NCBI GenBank assembly: GCA_000492175.2
Contig: CP097573.1
Location: 868,001-932,000 of the forward strand
DNA length: 64,000 nucleotides
Origin: Firmicutes bacterium ASF500
GTDB lineage: Bacteria; Bacillota; Clostridia; Oscillospirales; Oscillospiraceae
Reading direction: 5' to 3'
The position numbers and the translations under genes were made by a program. The stretch's first letter is position 1, and every line of letters begins with the position of its first letter. A model generated the notes under the pieces. The model was not told the DNA's origin. It did no database searches and was given only the letters and a program-made list of their open reading frames with translations. Positions 15,298-38,252 of this stretch are shown piece by piece.

Positions 15298-15798
15298 CTA
15301 CGGCGTCCAGCCCTCCATCCCCGTCCGCAGCTTCTCCAGCGCTTTCTTCTCAATGCGGGACACATAGGACCTGCTGATTCCGCATTGCGCGGCGATTTCC
15401 CGTTGCGTGCGAGGAAGCTTGTCGTCCAGGCCGTAACGCAGGGTCACGATCATCCGTTCCCGGGGCGTCAGGCAGGCCTGGACGCACCGGCGGACCTTGG
15501 CGCAGGCATCTCGGGTGTCCAGCTCCTCCAGCATGTCGTCATCCACCGCGATCACGTCCATCAGAGACAGGGTCCCCCCGTCCCCCGCCGCCTCCAGGGT
15601 TTCGGTGAGGGAGACCTCCCCCTGAAGCTTGCGCTGGGAGCGGAAATACATCAGGATCTCATTTTCAATGCACCGGCTGGCGTAGGTGGCCAGCCGGACG
15701 TTTTTATCCGCTTTGAAGGTTGAGATCCCCTTGATCAGCCCGATGGTCCCGATGGAAATCAGGTCGTCCTGATCCCCGGTCTGGGCGTAGTATTTTTT
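15298..15798 (-). CDS. sigK: sigK, 3' part: C-terminal 166 residues of sigma-K
   Basis: Encodes the sigma-K body from the Lys-Lys junction on: KYYAQTGDQDDLISIGTIG, the region 2 segment RLATYASRCIENEILMYFRS, then region 4 with LTPRERMIVTLRYGLD, TQREIAAQCGISRSYVSRIE and KKALEKL. It lacks the start of region 2 (the VEHNLRLVAHIVK segment), which lies 22 kb away at 38058-38252. Sigma-K drives late mother-cell genes during sporulation. Upstream of codon 1 here is foreign sequence beginning TTAACGGAGC on the plus strand. The two parts together give 231 residues, the usual size of sigma-K. Confidence 0.92.
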   Translation of the reverse strand, partial: KKYYAQTGDQDDLISIGTIGLIKGISTFKADKNVRLATYASRCIENEILMYFRSQRKLQGEVSLTETLEAAGDGGTLSLMDVIAVDDDMLEELDTRDACAKVRRCVQACLTPRERMIVTLRYGLDDKLPRTQREIAAQCGISRSYVSRIEKKALEKLRTGMEGWTP

Positions 15799-15822
15799 TA
15801 ACGGAGCAAGCAAAAGGACAAG
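15793..15822. other. Left attachment site of the sigK element
   Basis: The plus strand reads GTA (sigK Tyr), seven T, then AACGGAGCAAGCAAAAGGAC. The TT at 15797-15798 lines up with the TT at 38056-38057. The arm from 15799 on is repeated with few changes at 29171-29194. The crossover dinucleotide is inferred from reading frames and could be shifted by one Lys codon. Confidence 0.8.
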
Positions 15823-15843
15823 AGCTAGCGCATATCTACCGAT

Positions 15844-16200
15844 TCACTTGCTACCGAATGTATGCCTGTTGGTTATGATACAATTTTTCATTGCACTGAG
15901 AACTTCCAGCAAAAACTGCTGTTCAGAGTCAGTGCAGCCGCACAGCATCTCTGACAATTCCGATTGCCAAATACTGCAACAGTCTGGCTGGTTTTCATAA
16001 AGAAGTTTATCTGCGGTACACTCCAGAGCCTCCGCGATATTGACAACCGCTTGCAGGCTGGCCTGCTTAATTCCATTCTCAATGTGGCTGACGTAAGGGA
16101 CAGAGAGGTTTGCGTATTCTGCCAGCTCCGCTTGGGTCATTTTTCGTGCCCTGCGTATGACGCGTATCCTTTGTCCAATTCGTCTGTAATTCAGTATCAT
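15844..16200 (-). CDS. XRE-family repressor of the element
   Basis: A 118-residue Cro/CI-type protein. The helix-turn-helix is IGQRIRVIRRARKMTQAELA, then LSVPYVSHIENGIKQASLQ. A C-terminal region with several cysteines (PDCCS, MLCGCTDSEQQ) follows. It lies at the left end of element A, divergent from the first serine recombinase, the place of a phage-like repressor controlling excision genes. The target is unknown. Confidence 0.82.
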   Translation of the reverse strand: MILNYRRIGQRIRVIRRARKMTQAELAEYANLSVPYVSHIENGIKQASLQAVVNIAEALECTADKLLYENQPDCCSIWQSELSEMLCGCTDSEQQFLLEVLSAMKNCIITNRHTFGSK

Positions 16201-16295
16201 GTTTTTACCTCACCTTCGTTCAGATTTGATAAAATTTTACCAAATGTGGAACGATAGCAAAGGCGAGTCAAAAAGTATGTGAATTCTGTTGTTTC

Positions 16296-16331
16296 AATAA
16301 CCACAGGGATAGCAGTGTCCCCGTGGTTATT
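16296..16331. promoter_or_regulatory. Hairpin in the repressor-recombinase divergent region
   Basis: AATAACCAC (16296-16304) pairs with GTGGTTATT (16323-16331), and inner bases add to the stem. It lies between divergent genes and could be an operator or a leader terminator for the recombinase. Confidence 0.45.
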
Positions 16332-16386
16332 TCCATTTGTCAGGAAACTATTTTATACTGAGGAAAAGTTCCGGGGGTAGCCAAAC

Positions 16387-36182: not shown

Positions 36183-36189
36183 TCCCGAT

Positions 36190-36221
36190 GCCAGACGGAT
36201 ACAATCCGCCTGGCATTTTTT
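36190..36221 (+). terminator. Terminator before the recombinase operon
   Basis: GCCAG (36190-36194) with CGG pairs with CCGCCTGGC (to 36214), then ATTTTTT. It is a near copy of 28317-28347, and both mark the start of a right-end recombinase module. Confidence 0.85.
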
Positions 36222-36258
36222 CTCACCTCTGACATATCCATGGACTGAGGTGAGAAAA

Positions 36259-36453
36259 ATGGAACACGCACAGCGAGAACTGGTCCGCGTCCTTCTGGAG
36301 ACAGTCTACACCCGAGGCCTTTTGTCGAAAAACGCCTATTTGAACGCGGTGGATTTGGTTTATTCCGTGGCGGATATTCCCCCGTTTTTCTGGTATCCTG
36401 TATGCTTGGCAGAGGAGGCGAGCGGACTTGAATGTGCTCCAGGTACGCCGTGA
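36259..36453 (+). CDS. Small SHOCT-like protein upstream of the recombinase
   Basis: A 64-residue protein: ELVRVLLETVYTRGLLSKNA, then YLNAVDLVYSVADIPPFF. A short helix-turn-helix-like pair with a G-L-L-S turn resembles SHOCT-type small proteins often found just before serine recombinases. It overlaps the recombinase start by 26 bases, which suggests coupling or a role as a directionality factor. GAGGTGAG lies 5 bases before the ATG. Confidence 0.6.
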   Translation: MEHAQRELVRVLLETVYTRGLLSKNAYLNAVDLVYSVADIPPFFWYPVCLAEEASGLECAPGTP

Positions 36454-38164
36454 ACTGCGCAATGGAAAGACCATCTTCGACCTGCCCCTGCGGGTGACCT
36501 TCTACGCCAGAGTTTCCACCGACAAGGACGAGCAGATCAACAGCCTGGAAAACCAGGTGCAGTATTACACCGAGCTGATTCAATCAAAACCCAGTTGGGT
36601 CTTTGTGCCGGGGTACATCGACGAGGGCATTTCCGGCGCCAGCACCAAAAAGCGGGACAGCTTCCTGCGGATGATAAAGGACGCCAAAGGGGGGCGGTTC
36701 GACTTCATCATCACCAAGGAGATCTCCCGCTTTTCCCGCTCCACCCTGGACAGCATCAAATACACCCAGGAGCTGCTGGAACACGACGTGGGGGTGCTGT
36801 TCCAGAACGACAACATCAACACCCTGGACAGCGACAGCGAGTTCCGCCTGGTGGTCATGGCCGGGGTGGCTCAGGACGAGGTTCGCAAGCTGTCTGAGCG
36901 GCTGAAATTCGGCTTCCGGCAGGCCATCAAGAACGGCCATGTGCTGGGTAACGACAAGCTGTGGGGGTACGACAAAAAGGACTGCGTCCTCACCATCAAT
37001 GAGGAGGAGGCCCAGGTGGTGCGGCGGATCTTCGACCTCTACGCCAACCAGCAGATGGGCATCCGGCGCATTTCTCAGACGCTGCTGGACGAGGGCTTTA
37101 CCAGCCGAAAGGGCAACGCTTTCAACGTGCTGACCATCCGGCACATCCTCCGCAACCCCAAGTACAAGGGCTGGTACTGCGCCAACAAGTCCCAGACGGT
37201 GGACTACCGGAGCAAGCGGAAAATCTTTCTGGACGAGAGCGAGTGGGTGATGTACCCCGACCCGTCCGTTCCCGCTATCGTGTCCGAGGAGCTGTGGGAC
37301 CGGGCCAACGCCCTGTATAAGCGGCGCAGCCAGCAGATGATGTCCCACCAGAGCGGGGCGGAGTTCCACAACCGCTACCCCTACAGTGGAAAAATCGTCT
37401 GCGAGGAGCACGGCGTCAGCTTCCACCGGCAGGTATTGAAAAGCGCCAAGGGGGACAGGGAGGCCTGGCAGTGCCGGGAGTACCGGAACCGGGGCCGGGC
37501 GGCCTGCTCCGCCCCCCAGCTCTACACCGCCGAGCTGGACCGGATTATGGCCGGCATTTTTGACCAGATGGTCCAGAACAAGCAGGCTGTCATTGACGCG
37601 GTGGTAACCATTCTCCAGTCCGTCCCCGATGAGCACGACTACGGACAGGACCTTCGGCGCATTGAGGAGGACCTGTCCGCTCTCCAGGCAAAAAAAGACC
37701 GCCTGTTGGAGATGAACATTGAAGGCGTAATCTCTACGGCGGAGTTCAAACAGCGTAACGATGGATTCAACAATCAGGCCAAAGCCCTGGAGGAGAGGCG
37801 GACTGTACTCCAAGCGGAAGCGGAAAAGGGTTTGGGAACAGCCGCGCGTCTGGACGAAATACGCGATGCGCTGGAGGAGGAGCTAGCCTTCCGAAACGGA
37901 GTCAATTCCGCTCTGGTCACCACGATTTTAGACAAAATCGTGGTCAAAAAATGCAGCACGAAGGAGGTACTGCATCTGGACGTCTACTTAAAATCTGGCG
38001 GCCCCTGGAGGGCCGTTTTTGACCGGGAAAATTCCTCCTTCCGCTGTAACCCTTCTTCACAATGTGCGCCACCAGGCGCAGGTTGTGTTCCACAAGGATG
38101 TTTCGGGCCTCCAAATCTCCTTGGGCACAGCGCTCCAGGCACTCCTTTTCCTCCGCGGCCTTGA
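36428..38164 (+). CDS. spoIVCA: Serine recombinase of the sigK element (SpoIVCA-like)
   Basis: A 578-residue recombinase. The resolvase domain has VTFYARVSTDKDEQINSLEN with the catalytic Ser, and KEISRFSRSTLDSIKYTQEL. The recombinase domain includes WGYDKKDCVLTINEEEAQVV. A zinc-ribbon region follows, then a coiled coil near residues 420-480 and the tail DKIVVKKCSTKEVLHLDVYL. It begins with TTG at 36428 after GAGGAGG. The frame crosses the att site at 38056, and its last 35 codons are antisense sigK. In the excised circle the frame would instead end SLTEQAKG...MYACWL after 569 residues. It is the best candidate to rebuild sigK in the mother cell. Confidence 0.9.
   Translation: MNVLQVRRELRNGKTIFDLPLRVTFYARVSTDKDEQINSLENQVQYYTELIQSKPSWVFVPGYIDEGISGASTKKRDSFLRMIKDAKGGRFDFIITKEISRFSRSTLDSIKYTQELLEHDVGVLFQNDNINTLDSDSEFRLVVMAGVAQDEVRKLSERLKFGFRQAIKNGHVLGNDKLWGYDKKDCVLTINEEEAQVVRRIFDLYANQQMGIRRISQTLLDEGFTSRKGNAFNVLTIRHILRNPKYKGWYCANKSQTVDYRSKRKIFLDESEWVMYPDPSVPAIVSEELWDRANALYKRRSQQMMSHQSGAEFHNRYPYSGKIVCEEHGVSFHRQVLKSAKGDREAWQCREYRNRGRAACSAPQLYTAELDRIMAGIFDQMVQNKQAVIDAVVTILQSVPDEHDYGQDLRRIEEDLSALQAKKDRLLEMNIEGVISTAEFKQRNDGFNNQAKALEERRTVLQAEAEKGLGTAARLDEIRDALEEELAFRNGVNSALVTTILDKIVVKKCSTKEVLHLDVYLKSGGPWRAVFDRENSSFRCNPSSQCAPPGAGCVPQGCFGPPNLLGHSAPGTPFPPRP
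38046..38060. other. Right attachment site of the sigK element
   Basis: Plus strand GTAACCCTTCTTCAC. The sigK codons GTG AAG lie on the minus strand at 38055-38060. The TT at 38056-38057 is matched with 15797-15798. The arm before it (TTCCGCTGTAACCC) is the recombinase 3' end and is echoed at 29151-29166. Confidence 0.8.
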
Positions 38165-38252
38165 GGGGGCGTGGGAAGGAGCCTCCGCCGCCGGACAGGC
38201 GGAGGGTGAAGAACAGGCCGTTCATCATCAGGTAAATGACTGGCGACAACAA
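38058..38252 (-). CDS. sigK: sigK, 5' part: N-terminal 65 residues of sigma-K
   Basis: Reads LSPVIYLMMNGLFFTLRLSG, then GGSFPRPLKAAEEKECLERC and NILVEHNLRLVAHIV, the typical start of sigma-K up to region 2. The hydrophobic first 20 residues may be a short pro-sequence. The TTG at 38252 fits the GGAGG 8 bases upstream better than a GTG at 38261 or the ATG at 38228. In the integrated state the frame runs on past the att site into antisense recombinase and stops at 37944, giving a useless tail. The partner is at 15298-15798. Confidence 0.9.

Follow-up and report, generated by a model that had tools for sequence, protein, structure and literature searches.

In Bacillus subtilis, sigK is interrupted by the skin element, a prophage-like insert of 48 kb with a serine recombinase gene, spoIVCA, beside the 5' part of sigK and a short core with inverted repeats, and the element is excised in the mother cell (PMC10745906, PMC4191935, PMC13141910). 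Island IV of Bacillus cereus biovar anthracis, about 22 kb long and without evidence of a prophage, sits in sigK at codon 65, position 195 counted from the start; its recombinase gene lies beside and opposite the 5' fragment with slightly overlapping open reading frames (ORFs), and the island leaves as a circle during sporulation (PMC10745906). Excision of the Clostridioides difficile skin element needs both the recombinase CD1231 and CD1234, a directionality factor of 72 amino acids (aa) under sigma-E and SpoIIID control (PMC5025042), and gerE of B. cereus ATCC10987, a mother-cell gene, carries gin, a non-prophage intervening element with a serine recombinase (PMC5595907). Here we describe a skin-type split of sigK in Firmicutes bacterium ASF500, likely a gut dweller. 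The window analysed is a stretch of 64,000 nucleotides (nt), positions 868001-932000 of a one-contig 3.67-Mb genome (96.8% complete), and the insert in its sigK is a tandem of two mobile elements of one skin-type family, designated X and Y.

The window carries sigK as two parts on the minus strand: a 5' part of codons 1-65 at 38058-38252, which starts with TTG at 38252 where aligned relatives have ATG, and a 3' part of codons 66-231 plus stop at 15298-15798. The two parts match positions 7-69 and 68-228 of the SigK model NF004471 (in frames 37944-38261 and 15298-15813, respectively). Cut at the core, 38252-38058 and 15798-15298 join in frame to give a SigK of 231 aa, with the break between Val65 and Lys66, so that the insertion lies at position 195 of sigK, counted from the TTG to 38058. 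The joined protein scores 272.6 bits against NF004471 (cut-off 252) and 264.2 bits against TIGR02846, below its cut-off of 298.65; an uninterrupted congener SigK scored alongside gave 277.8 and 272.1 bits, the latter likewise below the cut-off. Its alignment with Flintibacter muris SigK covers 213 residues, has no gaps and shows 93.4% identity, and the two same-strand, in-frame parts described by an earlier, sequence-only reading of this DNA are thus real. That reading had also raised the possibility of a second full-length sigK, which a SigK profile search across the one-contig genome did not find: among 11 matches, the sole one-piece match over most of the model is SigE (383 bits against its own model, cut-off 339), and the remainder comprise the two sigK parts and fragmentary, lower-scoring matches in other sigma-factor frames. 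In relatives, which it had suggested comparing, sigK can be whole at this point; seven congener loci are empty at codon 65 and read CAYATYGYN followed directly by AARAARTAYTA across the junction, and the N- and C-parts are contiguous in others. The Val65/Lys-Lys junction is presumably the identical codon pair in B. cereus SigK.

The insert is bounded by two attachment sites. Read in the direction of sigK, the N-side sequence is GTG and, from the break on, AAGAAGGGTTAC AGCGGAAGGA, and the C-side sequence is TCCTTTTGCT TGCTCCGTT up to the break and AAAAAAATAC beyond it. The C-part-side site (15793-15818) comprises a core TT at 15797-15798 and an element arm at 15809-15818, and the N-part-side site (38036-38060) an element arm at 38036-38045 and a core TT at 38056-38057. 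The identical outer cores (TT on the plus strand, 22,259 bp apart) are short and direct, and the 10-bp arms are inverted and 10 bp from the central dinucleotide. Between them, at 29150-29191 on the plus strand, lies an internal attP-type site, TCCTTCCGCT-10-TT-10-AGCAGAAGGA, in which two element arms surround a core TT at 29170-29171 and both match the family arm pattern without a mismatch. No such site arose in 100 shuffles of the window, even with up to three mismatches, a test that is post hoc because the arm pattern was derived from the same family. A scan of the window and loci L039-L138 found one further site with no mismatches, in the F. muris locus L061 (11609-11650); the arms are modelled on this recombinase subfamily, and divergent sites would therefore escape such a scan. 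By eye, the sequence after the recombinase of locus L125 resembles a divergent site.

The internal site marks the boundary between X (15799-29169; 13.4 kb; guanine-cytosine (GC) content 0.494), whose recombinase has decayed, and Y (29172-38055; 8.9 kb; GC 0.615), whose recombinase is intact; the flanks of the insert have GC contents of 0.604 and 0.628. The dead recombinase of X persists on the plus strand as a relic at 28792-29169 (blocks 28792-29023 and 29027-29169) with an in-frame stop and its middle deleted, and is 79-80% identical in nucleotides to the intact Y copy. The sequence-only reading had taken the insert for one skin-type element of 22.26 kb with its own recombinase; the skin-type character and the recombinase stand, whereas the internal attP-type site and the second recombinase copy replace the single element with a tandem. 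All three core TT sites (15797, 29170 and 38056) point one way, which would suit a stepwise resolution via the internal site, with X-only or Y-only circles and sigK restored in some mother cells only. However, the internal site has two element arms, as an attP-type site does, serine integrases acting with a directionality factor usually excise attL x attR, and loss of Y alone would discard the recombinase; we consider stepwise resolution unlikely.

Both sigK parts are, by their substitution patterns, under purifying selection. Between the window and nine chosen congeners, the parts differ by 0.021-0.064 per nonsynonymous site (pN) and 0.48-0.73 per synonymous site (pS). In chosen sets of six split genes per part and nine comparison genes (the latter including the F. 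muris gene, which has a split of its own at site C, below), the mean pN/pS of the N-part is 0.037 in split and 0.064 in comparison genes. This bears on whether the insert is a dead genomic island that has broken sigK permanently in a strain no longer finishing sporulation. The relic recombinase and the further broken mobile genes of X would fit such an island, but the recombinase of Y is intact and conserved, pN/pS is low in both sigK parts and close to the values of the comparison genes, the join of the parts is exact, and SigE, SpoIIID and SpoIVA (window 4034-5506, 710 bits) are retained, all of which makes a dead island very unlikely. For SpoIVFB, a scan for the M50 family alone gave an ambiguous result. 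Upstream of sigK (window ~38273-38300), a block resembling CATAGGGACG...GAATANNGT recurs in 25 aligned loci, with CATA itself in 18 of them, and is possibly a mother-cell promoter or SpoIIID site.

The SpoIVCA-type large serine recombinase of Y (36428-38164, plus strand; Resolvase, Recombinase and zinc-ribbon domains) belongs to a conserved family. It adjoins the N-terminal part of sigK, as had been seen from the sequence alone, with the correction that its ORF runs beyond the junction at 38057 into antisense sigK, to 38164. A three-row recombinase alignment compared with the GTDB r220 species genomes gave 443 relatives, and the family counts given here concern the best 80 of these. In 74 of the 80 loci, a sigK part directly adjoins the recombinase at Val65/Lys66, with the recombinase antisense beside the N-part in 31 and sense beside the C-part in 43. 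Among the remaining six, L091 and L103 stop where their contigs do, in L082 an attachment arm and the N-part follow after a further 4.6 kb, and the surroundings of the recombinase in L061, L125 and L135 contain no sigK part. With the same junction and recombinase family in those 74 loci from other assemblies and a single-contig genome here, an assembly artefact or contamination, in favour of which nothing was found, has a negligible chance of explaining the split. Complete elements lie within the locus in 17 loci and measure 3.06 to 11.25 kb, smaller than the tandem of the window, and the codon-65 element of Flavonifractor sp. An100 separates the sigK parts by about 56 kb.

The core is AA in sigK orientation at all 31 N-side and all 43 C-side junctions, although on the C side AA is also demanded by the Lys codon; in recombinase orientation it is therefore TT in the group of 31 and AA in the group of 43. 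Locus L081 has the AA form with both arms. Element orientation goes with the core dinucleotide. A tree, made by a quick method and with some long branches, was built from 70 recombinases, namely that of the window and those of the 69 loci among the 74 in which at least about 500 residues were matched. On it, parsimony gives 10 orientation changes, at least four of them forced by starred branches, against a shuffled mean of 23. Phage and plasmid origins of the recombinase were rejected, as 463 phage-record matches (best 39.5%) and 299 plasmid matches are all below 60% identical. IMG/VR gave 14 recombinase loci, the two closest on short contigs, one of which (L160) adjoins sigK; a 47% relative (L162) lies on a 124-kb contig. 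The second SpoIVCA-like recombinase of the genome (C1:1447666-1449261, 39%) has no sigK part within the surrounding 18 kb.

Overlapping the start of the recombinase gene of Y is a gene for a 64-aa protein (36259-36453, plus strand), which by its place, size and promoter is a candidate recombination directionality factor. Family scans matched it to no known family; its AlphaFold2 model has two helices (mean predicted local distance difference test score, 76), and in 53 of the 80 loci a relative precedes the recombinase match by 157-232 nt. Before it, at 36210-36258 on the plus strand, we predict a sigma-E-type promoter with a CATA -10 element, followed by a ribosome-binding site, that would serve both the 64-aa gene and the recombinase. 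The prediction draws on 51 upstream regions, i.e., 50 loci and the window, three loci whose match began after residue 1 being omitted. CATA occurs between -42 and -15 in 50 of the 51, a count that is not independent because the loci are related, and in 39 it lies 25-27 nt before the start; single-base shuffles gave a mean of 7.6 and at most 18. With CATA as the anchor of the alignment, all 50 regions have G or T at the position 21 nt upstream of it, and T-rich sequence comes next. A -35 reading of this is the weaker part, given the relatedness of the loci and, in many of them, an overlap of the T-rich stretch with a likely terminator. In C. difficile sigK promoters, the mother-cell -10 boxes are CATATTAT and CATATAAT, and the sigma-E -35 carries an ATA motif (PMC3789822). 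The pairing of a large recombinase with a small protein is shared with the C. difficile skin element; however, CD1231 is described with a sigma-A-type promoter, whereas in Y the two genes overlap, and the predicted promoter would serve both.

Taken together, we think it highly probable that this tandem-split sigK is rebuilt in sporulation: the intact recombinase of Y, likely assisted by the 64-aa protein, would recombine the outer attachment sites in the mother cell and restore the 231-codon gene, at a time presumably set by the sigma-E-type promoter. X and Y would leave as one circle; since the internal site is of attP type, recombination should favour the outer attL x attR pair, and the forespore would keep the split gene, so that the array is inherited. 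Mother-cell gene expression is thus predicted to depend on excision, as the sequence-only reading also proposed. Beyond the relatedness of the upstream regions, several points weigh against this course of events. Excision itself is a prediction from the genome, and the naming of the candidate directionality factor draws on place, size and promoter. In 27 of the 80 loci no 64-aa relative was recognised, seven of them lacking the recombinase start and 20 having upstream DNA with no match above 30 bits. The SpoIIID gene match (108.3 bits) falls just below its cut-off of 111.5, for the C-part, split genes have a somewhat higher mean pN/pS (0.081) than comparison genes (0.056), and the tandem could lose one element only.

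Excision might also be non-developmental, occurring at random or on stress, with sporulation depending on cells that have lost the element. The 21.6-kb F. muris locus L061 contains a codon-65-type recombinase and the complete attP-type site but no part of sigK, while the sigK of that genome is unsplit at codon 65; it may be an unintegrated, relocated or carried form, and it speaks for this possibility. The promoter-like motif before the 64-aa gene and the split state in many species (below) speak against it, and we regard non-developmental excision as distinctly improbable in comparison with excision in the sporulating mother cell.

Across the genus, 61 genomes were surveyed, with the split state read from match limits; 50 were resolved and 11 were not, one of the latter (G047, the genome of L068) having an N-part at site A. 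Splits fall at three sites: A (codon 65), B (the I-E-N-E codons) and C (the YVSR codons). Twenty-four genomes have sigK uninterrupted at all three and 26 have it split, six of them twice. One-site splits number eight at C, five at A (window included) and four at B; two genomes are split at A and C, two at A and B, two at A and B with C unread, two at B with C unread and one at B with A unread, where the A-and-B cases were recognised by their middle exon only, and exons may be concealed or fragmented in draft assemblies. At site C, sigK ends at ...SYVSR, and in six of 10 such genomes the last exon (~20 codons) was located next to a different large serine recombinase, 2.4-8.7 kb downstream, with ATGTRT on both sides in five and GTATC in the sixth. 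Site-C loci include L081 (G013), L136 (G055) and L153-L156. The gene of F. muris, unsplit at codon 65, likewise stops at site C, and the 19.7 kb examined there did not contain its last exon.

At site B, the two sides share AATG in Anaeromassilibacillus sp. An200 and G037, and only an A run in L138 and G066. The B. subtilis skin site (AATGA in the I-E-N-E codons) fits site B and not the codon-65 site of the window. Three-exon genes with both codon-65 and IENE splits lie on one contig in L138 (G063:C1:18210-34979), where the joined exons encode, in frame, a SigK with 64% identity to the F. muris protein, and in L109 (G062:C56:66162-79090). In An200, sigK has three exons on one contig, the third stopping at site C; a fourth is possible, with none seen before the contig ends ~2.6 kb on. 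Site-B parts can be far apart, at about 140 kb on one contig in G010 (C1:3055139-3195553) and about 57 kb in G053. These arrangements suggest, with reasonable though lesser confidence, that sigK of this clade is a multi-part split gene with three fixed sites, tandem stacking, orientation flips by a two-base core swap and a coding sequence in two or three exons (one strain perhaps having four), such that a mother cell may need two independent DNA excisions before late spore genes become readable.

Island IV is the closest published relative that we found, likened by position and layout, recombinase homology aside: the size of ~22 kb, the codon-65 position, the recombinase adjoining and opposite the 5' part and the slight ORF overlap are alike, whereas its cargo is restriction-modification and others, and the available text describes no tandem (PMC10745906). 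The B. subtilis element is alike in the split of sigK, the recombinase by the 5' part and the short core with inverted repeats, and unlike in its prophage-like nature and size; the gin element is alike in kind and differs in its target, gerE. The sequence-only reading knew of no description of this element and held its cargo to differ from known ones. The kind of element and the codon-65 site are already in print, and the difference in cargo stands for island IV. The window thus holds a real skin-type split, of which the tandem and the membership in a three-site, at times multi-exon, sigK system are apparently new. Our literature search, in sources seen in part, found no report of a skin element with sigK in Oscillospiraceae or of a sigK skin with two insertions, and met tandem, orientation switching and multi-exon sigK nowhere; the word tandem was not a search term, and an earlier report is possible. 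The published text available treats the skin elements of Bacillus, clostridia and Alicyclobacillus case by case; in the present genus, about half of the resolved genomes have a split sigK. Such a genus offers a way to test why sigK is preferred as a target, whether excision serves as a useful timer, how a directionality factor is tied to sigma-E, and whether the core dinucleotide sets orientation.

Codon-65 elements are mostly small, and that of the window has metabolic and candidate defence cargo without phage structural genes: none of the phage structural families was found among the ORFs of X and Y scanned with Pfam or the 10 scanned with PHROGs, several ORFs having no match at all. The 64-kb window likewise gave no match in Rfam (gathering scores) or tRNA scans. 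At the left end of X lies an XRE/Cro-type regulator (15844-16200, minus strand; HTH_3, 52.8 bits); its other features lie on the plus strand. A second large serine recombinase (16387-18252; Resolvase and Recombinase domains) has a part of ~245 aa that is ~40% identical by tblastn to SpoIVCA of relatives. It is followed by a DUF6551 (ParB-like) protein (19848-20729), a ParA-type ATPase (21616-22401; AAA_31, 194 bits), a ParB-type protein (22398-23294; ParB_N, 64 bits), a RepA_N replication-initiator-type protein (24035-24604; 105.6 bits) and a serine recombinase broken into two ORFs (24773-25743; domain scan). A gene pair at 25883-27237 weakly matches the candidate defence system PDC-M03, B preceding A (PDC-M03A, E 3.7e-12; PDC-M03B, E 6e-5), and loci L060, L061, L062, L066 and L095 contain DNA similar to it. 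Y carries an AraC-family regulator (29249-30118, minus strand) and, on the plus strand, a LacZ-type beta-galactosidase of glycoside hydrolase family 2 (30297-33371), both from domain scans, a GPH-family sugar:cation symporter (33489-34844; TIGR00792, 269 bits, cut-off 231) and a flavin adenine dinucleotide (FAD)-dependent oxidoreductase with a Rieske domain (34887-36182; DAO 155 bits, Rieske 33 bits). Pseudoflavonifractor sp. 60 (L068) has the LacZ, symporter and FAD-Rieske genes at 82.6-88.5% nucleotide identity and in a different order beside a codon-65 recombinase, and in L148 and L021 an FAD-Rieske gene like that of Y lies divergently beside a sigK that is unsplit at codon 65.

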